A stretch of DNA of 37,968 bases from Candidatus Aenigmatarchaeota archaeon. Lineage in GTDB: Archaea; Aenigmatarchaeota; Aenigmatarchaeia; CG10238-14. A program made the position numbers and the translations under genes. Shown here one piece after another: positions 25,241 through 32,917 of the stretch. The stretch covers positions 1-37,968 of the forward strand of contig JAHLMN010000013.1 in NCBI GenBank assembly GCA_018920345.1. Reading direction: 5' to 3'. Each line of letters starts with the position of its first letter. Within the stretch, counting starts at the first letter, position 1. Below the pieces are notes generated by a model. It was not told the origin of the DNA. It saw only the letters and a list, made by a program, of their open reading frames with translations, and searched no databases.

Positions 25241-25942
25241 ATGACTACGATAAGTTTGTATAGATTTAATGAATGTTTGCCTAAAGAACAAATAATAAAG
25301 CTCTTGGATGGAAGAAAAGAGAATGGTTTTTGGTTTAGAGCAAAACAGTCAAGATTTCGTGAAGGAGAAATAGAAATAGATGTTTGGTATGAAGAGGATA
25401 TAGAAATAGGTATGCATAGAGTTTTTGCAGATGAGGCTACAGAAATAGTACAATATCTTAGAGAAAATGGAAAAGAGAAAGTAATAAGAAAAATATATTG
25501 TTTTATAGATGTGGATAAAAAGACACTAGAAATATACAGAGGTTATGATATATTAACAGAAAAAATAAAGCAAAAGTTAGAGAAGGTTTTATCAACAAAA
25601 TTTGTTGCCTTCTCTTTGAGTTCACAAGCATTAATAGATATAGTAAATAACCACAGTAGTGAATTGAAGCAAGCAATGTTCAAATATATACATGGTTTGT
25701 GGTATAGTATAATAAGAGGGAAACATCTAGAAAAAAATGAAAAGTATAATAGTTATTTGCAGACAAAACCAGATTCATTAAGAGTCATATCTTTTGTGCC
25801 AAAGATAAAATACATGTCTCCAAGAGAATACATGGTAACATTAAATGCAGATAAAGGAACTATAAAAATGGCAGATGGATATTTCAAGTGGAAACCAAGA
25901 TTTGAGGTAAAACAAATAATTGATCTACTAGTGTCTCTTTGA
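25241..25942 (+). CDS. Conserved-unknown/hypothetical 233-aa protein coupled to a PIN protein
   Basis: Long ORF with normal composition and an AGGTGG element upstream of the ATG; ATGA-type 4-nt overlap with the next ORF. No family recognised. Confidence 0.75.
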   Translation: MTTISLYRFNECLPKEQIIKLLDGRKENGFWFRAKQSRFREGEIEIDVWYEEDIEIGMHRVFADEATEIVQYLRENGKEKVIRKIYCFIDVDKKTLEIYRGYDILTEKIKQKLEKVLSTKFVAFSLSSQALIDIVNNHSSELKQAMFKYIHGLWYSIIRGKHLEKNEKYNSYLQTKPDSLRVISFVPKIKYMSPREYMVTLNADKGTIKMADGYFKWKPRFEVKQIIDLLVSL

Positions 25943-26418
25943 TTTTTATGAGAGTTTATTTGGATACAAACATTGTTTTTGGTTTTTTTAAAAGATTTTT
26001 GGAAAGCAAATTTATGAAAAAACAATTTAGACTGCCTGAGAAAATGTTGATAGCAAATAAAGCCAAGGATGTTTATATTTCTGAGCTAGTATTATCAGAA
26101 GTTGTATCTGGAATGAAGAAATGGTGTGAAAAAAATGAGATAAAATTAAGCAAAAATGAAATAGAAAGCTTAGTTCAAGAATTTAGAAAAGAATTCAAAA
26201 TAAAAATATTGAAAAAGGTTGAAATAAAGGATTTGTTTTTACTAGTAAATTATGGGATTGATATAAATGATGGAATTCATTTAGAAATTTCAAAAAATAG
26301 AGACATGGTATTTGTTACTGATGATAAAAGGTTATATGAAGCGGGAAAATATTTTTATGGTAAAGTTTTGAGTTTTCATGAATTTAGAAAATTAGTAAAT
26401 GGGCCAACGCAGAATTGA
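25939..26418 (+). CDS. PIN-domain ribonuclease (VapC-like)
   Basis: MRVYLDTNIV; SELVLSEV; NDGIHLEIS; FVTDDKRLY: the four acidic PIN positions. Confidence 0.85.
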   Translation: MIFMRVYLDTNIVFGFFKRFLESKFMKKQFRLPEKMLIANKAKDVYISELVLSEVVSGMKKWCEKNEIKLSKNEIESLVQEFRKEFKIKILKKVEIKDLFLLVNYGIDINDGIHLEISKNRDMVFVTDDKRLYEAGKYFYGKVLSFHEFRKLVNGPTQN

Positions 26419-28586: not shown

Positions 28587-28768
28587 GGTCCCTCAAAGCC
28601 ACACTTGGGGCATTTATAAATATTGGATAGTCTTCTACATTTAGAGCATCTAAATATATCTTGCTCACCACATTTAGGACATTTAAAATGGACAAAAGTT
28701 GTATCACCTAGCAAATTTGTTTTGCAGCTAGTACAAAACATCCATTTTTCGCCTACTTGAGTATTCAA
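28583..28768 (-). CDS. Small zinc-ribbon (HVO_2753-like) protein
   Basis: CTSCK...FKCPKCGEQDIFRCSKCRRLSNIYKCPKCGFEGP; four CxxC motifs; coupled to aEF-1beta. Confidence 0.9.
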   Translation of the reverse strand: MNTQVGEKWMFCTSCKTNLLGDTTFVHFKCPKCGEQDIFRCSKCRRLSNIYKCPKCGFEGP

Positions 28769-28833
28769 ACAATCACCTTTAGCTATAATACTTTTTTCTT
28801 TTAGGTTTAAAAGTTTATTAATATATCGGTATG

Positions 28834-28907
28834 GCTCCCGTAGTCTAACCTGGATAGGACAGGGCCCTGCGGAGGCTCTAATCCGAGTTCAAATCTCGGC
28901 GGGAGCA
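28834..28907 (+). tRNA. tRNA-Arg (GCG)
   Basis: GCTCCCG/CGGGAGC acceptor with A73; anticodon arm GGGCC-CTGCGGA-GGCTC; T-loop TTCAAAT. Confidence 0.94.
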
Positions 28908-28910
28908 CTT
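28887..28910 (+). repeat. att-like direct repeat, copy 1 (3' end of tRNA-Arg)
   Basis: gttcaaatctcggcgggagcactt; imperfect second copy at 29815-29836. Confidence 0.65.
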
Positions 28911-29440: not shown

Positions 29441-29707
29441 AGCTCTGTAGAAACCCTTAATTAATTTTAATAAAAAACCCATATGATTAAATTATTCTCC
29501 ATTCTAATCTTTCTGTATATGCTGTAAACTATATTTTTTGAGTTTAATTTTTTTCAACTTTAGCTTCTCTATTCGACTATAAGGTGCTTTACTGCTTCTA
29601 TTATAGCTATACTGTCTTTACAATAATGCGGGATTAACCTCTTGAAGGTTTATAAAAAGATAGGGTTTGATCCCTAATTTACTTTTCTATAGGATTTCTA
29701 CAGAGCC
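29441..29707. repeat. Non-coding segment bounded by near-perfect inverted repeats (decayed IS/MITE-like or structured RNA)
   Basis: Left AGCTCTGTAGAAACCC; right, reverse-complemented, GGCTCTGTAGAAATCC. The 12-bp core gctctgtagaaa/tttctacagagc is perfect (29442-29453 / 29695-29706). Confidence 0.5.
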
Positions 29708-29814: not shown

Positions 29815-29836
29815 GTTAAATTCGGCAGGAGCACTT
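29815..29836 (+). repeat. att-like direct repeat, copy 2 (partial tRNA-Arg 3' end)
   Basis: gttaaattcggcaggagcactt aligns to 28887-28910 with two 1-nt gaps and one mismatch. Confidence 0.65.
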
Positions 29837-29864: not shown

Positions 29865-30167
29865 ATGAGTATACCTAAATCTCTAAAAGGCGTCACTAGG
29901 TATATTTTAACATTTTATAGAACTGCTTCTAGTTATGATTGGAAGGAATTAGAAGATGCTCTAAGAAAAAGGGGTTATGAAATAGTTGTCAATCAACAAA
30001 ATGATGATGAAATAATAGCAGATGTTTATCTAAAAAATATAAATAGTCTAATTCCTTTGGTTAGCTTGTGTGAAGCAAATAATTGGGAAGTAGGATATTC
30101 AAATGAACCAAATAAAAGACTAATAACAACTTATATAAGAGGTCAAATCTCTATAATTAAAGTTTAA
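29865..30167 (+). CDS. Hypothetical protein (100 aa)
   Basis: ATG ORF with balanced composition; no recognised family. Confidence 0.55.
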   Translation: MSIPKSLKGVTRYILTFYRTASSYDWKELEDALRKRGYEIVVNQQNDDEIIADVYLKNINSLIPLVSLCEANNWEVGYSNEPNKRLITTYIRGQISIIKV

Positions 30168-30174
30168 TTTTTAA

Positions 30175-30190
30175 ACTACTTTTTAGTAGT
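30175..30190 (+). promoter_or_regulatory. Perfect 6-bp hairpin ACTACT-TTTT-AGTAGT upstream of the 30224 ORF
   Basis: Inverted repeat followed by AATATTTATATATAAA, a TATA-like tract. Confidence 0.35.
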
Positions 30191-30223
30191 AATATTTATA
30201 TATAAAAATGATAAATATAATTT

Positions 30224-30703
30224 ATGAGCGATAGAAAAGATAAAGGAAAAATAGTAGATACCTCTCATGCTTTAAAAAAAGGTGAATTTGAAGATGGTGA
30301 TATTGCAACACCAGGTGTTTTGGATGAAATTAGAAAAAAAAATCCAGCATTATATTCGAAATTCTTTACATTATTGGCTGCTGGTGTGGTTGAACTTTTT
30401 AGCATACCTGCAACCATTGAATGGTATTTATTAAAACTTACATTAAAATCTATAGCTTTAAGAAATCATCAAAATCCAAGTGAAACTGATGTCGAAGTTT
30501 GTGCGGCTGGTGTATATACACGCAAACCTGTAGCAAGTGAAGATAGAGATATAAATTATACTCTATTTCGTTATTACCTAAGTTTGGGTTTAAGAGCTGC
30601 TGGCTCTTTTATTCAATATTATGGTTTAAATTTATTATCAGATGGTAGATTAGCTCAATATGTTCAGGCTGAATTAAATCGGCTTTCACAATATATTAAA
30701 TAG
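30224..30703 (+). CDS. Hypothetical protein (159 aa)
   Basis: ATG ORF with TATA-like upstream sequence; no recognised family. Confidence 0.6.
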   Translation: MSDRKDKGKIVDTSHALKKGEFEDGDIATPGVLDEIRKKNPALYSKFFTLLAAGVVELFSIPATIEWYLLKLTLKSIALRNHQNPSETDVEVCAAGVYTRKPVASEDRDINYTLFRYYLSLGLRAAGSFIQYYGLNLLSDGRLAQYVQAELNRLSQYIK

Positions 30704-30724
30704 TTAAAGTTTTAATAACGCTTT

Positions 30725-31414
30725 ATGAAATTTCCGAGAACTCCGCATGTGTATGCAGAATATTCTGGCCTTTCTTTAGATGACAAAAGATATAGCACTA
30801 GAGAATCTGAAGAAATACTTGAAGGAAAATATGTTGTTTTAACAGAAAAATTAGATGGTTCGAATGTTTCAATAGAATTTGAATCAAATGGTGAATTATC
30901 GATTAAATTCAGAGGAAACCCTGCAGCAACGGAAGAATTTAATTTGTTAAAAAATATTTGTAATTCAAAACATGAAAGATTAAAAAATATTTTAGGTCAA
31001 AATTTAATACTTTTTGGAGAATGGGTTTATTGTCTTCATACTATAAGATATAGTAGACTGCCTCATTATTTATTTATATTCGACTTGTATGATAAAAAAA
31101 GAGAAATATTTCTTCCTTATAGAAGAGTCATTGATGTCTCTAATAATTTAAGATTTCCAACCCCAAGAATTTTGTATGAAGGTATTTATCCTGGTTTTGA
31201 GTATTTAAAAAACTTGTTAGATCTAACTTCAGCTTATGGAGACGAAAAAATAGAAGGTGTTTATGGAAAAATAGAAGATGATGAAAAAGTTATTTTTAGG
31301 TTTAAATTTGTAAACCCAGAATTTAGAAAAAAAGTTGACGAGAGTATTCATTGGAAGAAAAAACAACCTGAAATACAAGGTTTAATTGTAAATATTAACG
31401 AATTATTCTTATGA
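30725..31414 (+). CDS. ATP-dependent RNA ligase-like nucleotidyltransferase
   Basis: Motif I EKLDGSNVSIEF; motif Ia-like KFRGNPA; motif III-like LFGEWVYCLHTIRYSRLPHYLFIFDLYD; motif IV-like KIEGVYGKIED; motif V-like VIFRFKFVNPEF. Confidence 0.82.
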   Translation: MKFPRTPHVYAEYSGLSLDDKRYSTRESEEILEGKYVVLTEKLDGSNVSIEFESNGELSIKFRGNPAATEEFNLLKNICNSKHERLKNILGQNLILFGEWVYCLHTIRYSRLPHYLFIFDLYDKKREIFLPYRRVIDVSNNLRFPTPRILYEGIYPGFEYLKNLLDLTSAYGDEKIEGVYGKIEDDEKVIFRFKFVNPEFRKKVDESIHWKKKQPEIQGLIVNINELFL

Positions 31415-31995
31415 TATCACTAGAATACATAGAATCTCTCTATATAGCTTCTTGTCACCCCTATGAAGGTAGACCTTATGCTGATCTAGCAGAAGATTGG
31501 AAAAAAAAGATAATGAAAGGTGAAAGACAAATACCTGAAGAAGAGTTTGCTAAAGCATTTCCACATGCATATAAAATTTATAGATCAGGCAGACTTTTAC
31601 AAGATTATTTTGAATCTTTAAATGAAGGCTCGCATAATTGGCTTTTGTGGATGTTTTTAGTCAATGCTCAAAAAAGATTACCTCTTGAAGTTTTATCAAG
31701 TATATTAGTACATACAGAATATTGTTGTGTTAAAGTAGGGAGAAGAGATGATAAAATACATGTGCCTTCTTTAACAGGAGAATATGAATTTTCAAGAGAT
31801 CAATTTAATTTTTTATGTGAAGAAAGTGAATATTATTTTCTTCACGGCTTTGACGGCAAAATATATGCAATAAGACCTGCTTCGAAAGAAGATTTTGAAA
31901 GATTTGAAGAATGGTTTAACGAAAAAAGAAAATCTATTTTAAAGTCAACTTCATCATGTCCTTTGCCACAATTGTATCAGGAAATATCTTTTTAG
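31411..31995 (+). CDS. Hypothetical 194-aa protein translationally coupled to the RNA ligase
   Basis: ATGA overlap with the ligase stop; no recognised family. Confidence 0.65.
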   Translation: MISLEYIESLYIASCHPYEGRPYADLAEDWKKKIMKGERQIPEEEFAKAFPHAYKIYRSGRLLQDYFESLNEGSHNWLLWMFLVNAQKRLPLEVLSSILVHTEYCCVKVGRRDDKIHVPSLTGEYEFSRDQFNFLCEESEYYFLHGFDGKIYAIRPASKEDFERFEEWFNEKRKSILKSTSSCPLPQLYQEISF

Positions 31996-32842
31996 CTTGC
32001 TCCTCTAGCTCAGCTGTATCAGTATATCTTCTGCTTATATGTGTTAACACAAGCCTTTTTACACCTGCTGCTTTTGCTATCTCAGCTGCTTTTTTAACAT
32101 CAGAATGATATTTGCCACCAACATCCTCTTCTAAAAAAGTACCATCGTGGATAAGCATATCAGCCTCTTTAGCAATATTGGCTATATTTTTATGCGGTTT
32201 TGTATCGCCTGTATATACTATCTTTAAGCCTCTTTTGACATAACCTACTTCTTCTATAGTTATAACCTTGTCTTTTAGTTGATATTTGCCATCCTTTTTC
32301 AGTTTTCTTAACCAAGCTCCTCTTTTCAATCCTAGCTTGTCTAGCTTTTCTTCATCAATATTCCATTTGTCTTTTTCCTTAAAACAATAGGCAACTGCTG
32401 GCACGGTGTGATAGGCAGGTGTAGCATATACTTCATAATCGTCTGTCTCATCTATTTTTTTTATAGCATTCCCTTCAAAATCAACATTTCTAGCTTCTAT
32501 AGGGAAGCGCACACCAAAATAACCTAGATCAAGAATATTTGAAACAAACTTTTCAGCTTCTGGTCCATAAATAATTAATGGTTTTTTCCTTTTCTCCAAA
32601 TTCATTGTTTGTATCATTGGTATTAATCCAGCAAAATGATCAGCATGCCAGTGAGTGATGAATATCTTGCTTATCTGCATAAAGCTTATTCCTGCTTTCA
32701 TTAACTGCTTTTGCGTGCCTTCTCCACAATCAAACAGCAAGACATCTCTTGTGTTTGTGTAATGCTCTAAGACAATAGCCGGATGGTTTCTATCTAAAGT
32801 AGGAATACCAGATACTGTGCCTAAAAAGGTTATGACTATCAT
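31934..32842 (-). CDS. rnz: Ribonuclease Z (tRNase Z)
   Basis: FLGTVSGIPTLDRNHPAIVLEH; FITHWHADHFAGLIPMIQTM; GDTKPHKNIANIAKEADMLIHDGTF; LVLTHISRRY. Confidence 0.95.
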   Translation of the reverse strand: MIVITFLGTVSGIPTLDRNHPAIVLEHYTNTRDVLLFDCGEGTQKQLMKAGISFMQISKIFITHWHADHFAGLIPMIQTMNLEKRKKPLIIYGPEAEKFVSNILDLGYFGVRFPIEARNVDFEGNAIKKIDETDDYEVYATPAYHTVPAVAYCFKEKDKWNIDEEKLDKLGLKRGAWLRKLKKDGKYQLKDKVITIEEVGYVKRGLKIVYTGDTKPHKNIANIAKEADMLIHDGTFLEEDVGGKYHSDVKKAAEIAKAAGVKRLVLTHISRRYTDTAELEEQAKKIFPDTIVAKDMMKLTLK

Positions 32843-32917
32843 TGAAATAATTTAGTCAAGCAAAGGTTAATTATTTTCGCATAAGAAATTTAATAATTTT
32901 TAAATCAAAAAAAATAT

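Follow-up and report, generated by a model that had tools for sequence, protein, structure and literature searches.

The window, a 37,968-nucleotide stretch of DNA from a Candidatus Aenigmatarchaeota archaeon, is contig C11 of an 816-kb genome that is 95.5% complete. Between a tRNA-Arg gene and a tRNase Z gene it carries four co-directional ORFs: a 100-aa ORF, a 159-aa ORF, an RNA ligase and a 194-aa protein (Table 1). The initial annotation had described the last two, their ATGA overlap and their position near tRNA-Arg and tRNase Z, all of which we confirm: the ligase and 194-aa ORFs share four nucleotides at 31411-31414, and the tRNase Z gene is convergent with the 194-aa gene and overlaps its 3' end. 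The two same-strand ORFs upstream of the ligase, of 100 aa and 159 aa, had not been mentioned there; only 21 nt separate the end of the 159-aa ORF from the start of the ligase.

Table 1. Features between tRNA-Arg and tRNase Z, with positions in the window
Feature	Position	Strand	Remarks
tRNA-Arg(GCG)	28834..28908	+	left edge of variable islet; flank 90% identical in both congeners
100-aa ORF	29865..30167	+	borders the insertion on the left; orthologous to the 102-aa ORF of G002
Inserted segment (promoter, PIN and ligase)	30174..31410		about 1.24 kb; 100-aa ORF to its left, 194-aa gene to its right
Promoter-like TATA stretch AGTAATATTTATATATAAAAA	30187..30223	+	directly 5' of the PIN gene; common to the G002 module copy
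Predicted PIN nuclease gene, 159 aa	30224..30703	+	divergent, Nob1/VapC-like PIN core without zinc ribbon; conserved partner of the ligase
Minimal ATP-dependent RNA ligase, 229 aa	30725..31414	+	adenylyltransferase domain alone, PF09414
194-aa protein gene	31411..31995	+	resident beside tRNase Z; patchy Aenigmatarchaeota family
tRNase Z (metallo-beta-lactamase)	31934..32842	-	right conserved flank

The islet next to the tRNA-Arg gene holds two further features. At 29442-29706, 16-bp terminal inverted repeats (GCTCTGTAGAAACCCT and AGGATTTCTACAGAGC) enclose a non-coding stretch of 265 bp, and contig C18 carries a degenerate second copy of it (partial matches of 88% and 80%); this is a MITE-like element. 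The tRNA-Arg 3' end with its flank, TCGGCGGGAGCACTT (28896-28910), recurs with one mismatch 926 bp downstream, at 29822-29836, and the repeat pair is an att-like duplication; the congeners do not have the low-GC stretch that lies between the two TCGGCGGGAGCACTT copies.

The ligase was identified in the initial annotation as a nucleotidyltransferase RNA ligase, and this assignment holds: it matches Pfam RNA_ligase (PF09414) with E 1.5e-24 and 87.5 bits (cut-off 27), and motifs I, III, IV and V are intact (K42-L-D44-G45, E99, E177-G178 and R192-x-K194; alignment A4). There was no match to the Rnl3 model TIGR01209 at E<=1, and with 229 aa, against about 380 aa in Rnl3, the protein lacks the dimerisation domain. 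Membership in Rnl5/DraRnl (TIGR02306), a family with an N-terminal OB domain, was rejected at 12.1 bits and E 0.065 against a cut-off of 151 bits. In a tree of 16 ligase sequences, poorly resolved and with long branches, Rnl3 is set apart. Neither the ligase profile nor the profile of the 159-aa protein found a confirmed relative among viral contigs. This ligase is the only PF09414 match in the genome, in which we found no Rnl3 homologue; since RtcB is encoded as well, the ATP-dependent enzyme is an additional ligase, in agreement with the earlier proposal that it is separate from RtcB. ATP-dependent RNA ligases of this fold require 5'-phosphate and 3'-OH ends, and RtcB acts on the other kind (PMC7824862).

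The 159-aa protein directly upstream has no Pfam match at E<=1, PIN_5 included. Its sequence contains PIN motifs (VDTS, TPGVLDEIR, SETDVEV and SEDRDIN), and in its AlphaFold2 model (mean pLDDT 81.6) the elements follow the order of a PIN domain. A Foldseek search of this model against PDB placed archaeal Nob1 (2lcq) first, with probability 1.00 and E 2.8e-3; VapC and other PIN proteins came next, and TM-scores were about 0.5. Profile comparison with hhalign matched the protein to archaeal Nob1 (76%, E 2.3e-5) and brought their acidic residues into the same columns, although the alignment of the 159-aa protein is shallow (three sequences, one of them partial); control comparisons with unrelated alignments, including that of the other PIN protein of the window, stayed below 1%. 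Residues D12, E35, D89 and D107/D109 form the predicted acidic site and recur in the orthologues; this PIN is found in 3 of 156 genomes of the phylum. By structure search and Nob1 profile alignment, the 159-aa ORF is thus predicted to encode a divergent PIN nuclease. Nob1 itself is ruled out, as the zinc ribbon is absent and the protein has a single cysteine, against C126, C129, C139 and C142 in the archaeal Nob1 alignment. Searches for the Nob1 PIN (PIN_6) gave no match in the window genome or in the other 11 genomes of its family f1 that were searched, and found it in related families of the order; Nob1, the essential nuclease of the 16S rRNA 3' end, is missing, highly diverged or replaced in family f1.

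The initial annotation had linked the ligase to a PIN nuclease and to RNA repair. The link is plausible, but the PIN concerned is the gene directly upstream of the ligase, and not the PIN protein about 5 kb away that had been cited. The latter overlaps an upstream 233-aa ORF (25241-26418), and because the order and neighbourhood of these two genes are kept in both G002 and G003, they form a resident pair that is stable and unconnected with the ligase.

The 194-aa protein has no recognised family, as initially stated: searches of Pfam, NCBIfam, PHROGs, PADLOC and PDB sequences, and of phages, plasmids and viral contigs, were all empty. AlphaFold2 predicts an alpha domain and a beta-rich C-terminal domain (pLDDT 90.2). 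The structure search that had been suggested for it returned no confident PDB or viral fold; the best PDB match was the OB-like RMI2 at probability 0.41, and the best viral match reached 0.47. Members of the family occur in 7 of the 156 genomes, and the four genomes beyond the congeners have no match to the ligase profile. Three of these four further homologues adjoin NiFe-hydrogenase genes, namely those for the large and small subunits in G022 and G139 and for a HycI-type maturation protease in G032 (hydrogenase-side loci L089:4473-6772, L016:3123-6494 and L017:89-1308), and one homologue lies between the SBDS and tRNA-splicing endonuclease genes. In an alignment of six sequences C15, H75, H101, C105 and H145 are kept, which suggests a metal or redox site. 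The distribution points to a separate, patchy family and not to a conserved partner of the ligase.

Comparison with the congeners accounts for the present arrangement. In both congeners that have the two genes, G002 and G003, the orthologues of the ligase (62% identity in G002 and 59% in G003; 59-63% across searches) and of the 194-aa protein (58-62%) lie on separate contigs. The gene order is tRNA-Arg, 102-aa ORF, 194-aa orthologue and tRNase Z in G002, and tRNA-Arg, 194-aa orthologue and tRNase Z in G003, with no ligase at either locus. The ligase of both congeners is instead convergent with a 99-aa gene, which we take to be DUF1616-like, and is directly preceded by the orthologue of the 159-aa ORF; for the flanking gene of this ligase locus no orthologue was found in the window genome. 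At the base level, two stretches of the window, 28701-28905 (about 90%) and 31441-32899 (77-78%), correspond to the tRNA-Arg/tRNase Z locus in both congeners. The 100-aa ORF, whose orthology to the 102-aa ORF of G002 was recognised by protein resemblance in the ORF lists, aligns with it over 29953-30173 (blastn, 66%); the similarity to this empty site of G002 ends at base 30173 and resumes inside the 194-aa gene. The intervening sequence matches the other G002 contig, at 86% over the 36 bp of 30187-30222, which hold the same position there, and at 67% over 30473-31394.

At the empty site of G002 only 5 nt part the 102-aa ORF from the 194-aa orthologue downstream: the stop codon of the first is followed by TTTTT and then by the ATG of the second. 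In the window the promoter, PIN and ligase of the insertion come after the same TAATTTTT and before the ATG with which the 194-aa gene begins. We found no clear target duplication or transposase at the boundaries. Whichever state is ancestral, the PIN and ligase genes move as one and the 194-aa gene remains beside tRNase Z. The boundary of the insertion falls between the ligase and the 194-aa gene, the ATGA overlap arose by insertion and is not conserved, and it says nothing on functional partnership: a clear case in which a 4-nt overlap, usually taken as an operon signal, is explained by insertion. The pairing of ligase and 194-aa gene described in the initial annotation is accordingly a chance product of the insertion. 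The 194-aa gene is a bystander that may now be transcribed from the promoter of the module. The 100-aa ORF has no match to an antitoxin family in Pfam and is not adjacent to the module in G002 or G003.

We then ask how general the association of PIN and ligase is. Across 156 genomes of the phylum, ligase profile A4 matches only G000, G002, G003, G012 and G018, and in all five a PIN or PIN-like gene lies directly upstream of the ligase. This exact PIN-ligase pair is confined to three genomes; in these three species the order of PIN and then ligase is constant, while the flanking genes vary and two genomic positions are used. The G002 copy of the PIN gene is frameshifted, whether in reality or by assembly error, and the G002 ligase is intact. 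In G012 and G018 the upstream protein is of the PIN_3 type (E 5.5e-6 and 27.6 bits, cut-off 27, in G012; E 3.8e-5 and 24.9 bits, below the cut-off, in G018), and the ligases align with the window type at 96.7% in profile comparison. A sixth, weaker tandem pair occurs in G014, where the first protein is a PIN by motifs only and the ligase is below the Pfam cut-off. These second-type pairs of G012, G018 and G014 (L087:2701-4275, L088:1329-3040 and L086:2460-4156, respectively) have ligases of about 275 aa with PIN_3-like proteins upstream. The PINs upstream of the ligases of the phylum are not alike at the profile level. PIN genes are rare, with two PF01850 matches in total in the window genome, so that repeated adjacency by chance seems unlikely, although the three congeners count as one event. 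The conserved unit therefore appears to be a PIN nuclease and a minimal ATP-dependent RNA ligase; its composition, gene order, intact active sites and relocation are supported by sequence and prediction.

Several known systems resemble this pair in part. HARP, a protein-only RNase P of the PIN_5 type, is linked to Rnl3 in archaea and bacteria (mBio 2025, PMC12153264), and a toxin-antitoxin or sRNA-maturation role has been discussed for it (PMC12153264). What the two systems have in common is the genetic linkage, in extremophile prokaryotes, of an ATP-dependent RNA ligase with a PIN-superfamily nuclease. However, the window ligase, at about 229 aa, has no TIGR01209 match and no dimerisation domain, the window PIN has no HARP/PIN_5 match and aligns with Nob1/VapC, and the pair is a co-directional tandem, unlike the usually bidirectional HARP-Rnl3. 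With neither the HARP nor the Rnl3 family present, the pair is a new form of the PIN-RNA ligase linkage already reported in 2025; the open-access literature, to which our search was confined, yielded no description of it. VapBC shares the VapC-like PIN fold with the 159-aa protein; no VapB-type antitoxin family was found here, and the conserved neighbour is a ligase.

Bacterial plasmid ligases about 30% identical to the window ligase occur in two settings, in a HEC-03 candidate defence unit or beside an HD-polynucleotide kinase, with PARG in Deinococcus. The second setting includes the DRB0100-DRB0099-DRB0098 operon of D. radiodurans (ligase-like, PARG and HD-PNK), in which the ligase is of the same minimal type (28% identity over 220 residues) but the partners are PARG and a polynucleotide kinase, with no PIN. 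The first is a plasmid unit of the DUF3696 ATPase HEC-03B, HEC-03A and ligase in Aeromonas, Azotobacter, Tistrella and Rhodococcus. Here, too, the gene immediately before the related ligase (about 230 aa) encodes a small protein with PIN-like motifs (VIDTNVLL...DRK...QAxDxKW); these motifs suggest that HEC-03A is a PIN. Unlike the bacterial unit, with its DUF3696 AAA ATPase, the archaeal module does without one: none of the ORFs adjoining it in the window, in G002 and in G003 encodes an ATPase, and PADLOC gave no HEC-03 match. Homology of HEC-03A to the 159-aa protein was rejected (0.2% in profile comparison), leaving an analogy only, and profile comparisons of HEC-03A with Nob1 and with the second-type PINs failed. 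On an Acinetobacter soli plasmid (L072:2639-5296) a HEC-03 unit has an HNH endonuclease gene in place of the ligase, its DUF3696 ATPase being annotated as two ORFs.

The explanation we place first, at about even confidence, is that the locus carries a module of two genes, able to relocate, for cutting and resealing RNA: a PIN-type endoribonuclease with a minimal ATP-dependent RNA ligase downstream, in an accessory conflict or stress role. The PIN enzyme, metal-dependent, would cleave a specific RNA, tRNAs and rRNAs being typical targets; the ligase would reseal the same RNA species, reversing or limiting the damage. From sequence and models we infer the two activities, their shared substrate and the biological role of the module; an accessory part in conflict or stress is favoured by how patchily the module is distributed and by its changes of position in the genome. 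Direct resealing would work only with 5'-phosphate and 3'-OH ends. VapC products are stated in one paper to carry 5'-OH (PMC6459853), and with such ends the ligase would be unable to seal without a kinase; the end chemistry of PIN nucleases is not uniform in the literature. Against this reading stands DRB0100, the nearest characterised relative, which self-adenylates but ligated neither DNA nor RNA in vitro (PMC1997131). The missing Pfam match of the window PIN, its shallow alignment and TM-scores near 0.5, and the limitation of the exact pair to three genomes also count against it. If the frameshift in the G002 PIN is not an assembly error, the ligase there may not need the PIN.

Alternatively, the PIN could trim an RNA precursor and the ligase circularise or join the product, as HARP and Rnl3 would on archaeal C/D box sRNAs. 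We regard such a maturation role as possible but doubtful. It draws on the published gene linkage of HARP-Rnl3 and circularisation role of archaeal Rnl3 (PMC12153264), on the likeness of the window PIN to Nob1, an RNA-maturation nuclease, and on a genome where the sole PF09414 protein is this ligase; however, the restriction of this PIN to 3 of 156 genomes, relocation within the genus and placement in variable regions are more in keeping with an accessory role. General RNA repair, in which the ligase mends damage from other nucleases or heat and the PIN is a separate stress nuclease sharing its promoter, seems unlikely to us. The occurrence of related bacterial ligases with HD-polynucleotide kinase and PARG and no PIN, and the broken PIN beside an intact ligase in G002, would suit it, but the constant upstream position of PINs that are unlike at the profile level speaks against it, as does the fact that no kinase or phosphatase adjoins the archaeal ligase. 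Least credible by far, and refuted as a conserved association, is the initial proposal of an RNA repair system in which the ligase has the 194-aa protein as its dedicated partner. The ATGA overlap and shared direction that speak for it occur in this one genome, whereas in G002 and G003 the 194-aa gene lies beside tRNase Z on a different contig from the ligase, no 194-aa partner stands beside the homologous ligases, the family recurs in four further genomes without a ligase match, three times beside NiFe-hydrogenase genes, and the insertion boundary separates the two genes.

A wider form of the cut-and-reseal reading, which we put forward tentatively and think rather improbable as it stands, is that ligases of one clade have been combined with PINs of unrelated families (Nob1-like and PIN_3-like in archaea, and probably HEC-03A on bacterial plasmids) into a recurrent, independently assembled system. 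The ligase of such a system would be a built-in antidote, one that does not block the toxin but reverses the cut in the RNA by catalysis. If the PIN-ligase pair does work as a unit, the result would be either an antidote acting by RNA repair and not by toxin neutralisation, or a pathway of two enzymes for joining RNA beside RtcB in a minimal archaeal genome. It could also explain the adenylation without ligation of DRB0100-type enzymes, for which the ends or the RNA would perhaps be supplied by a partner. The linkage known from HARP-Rnl3 would then extend to further PIN and ligase families, and PIN-ligase pairs would be worth seeking generally.
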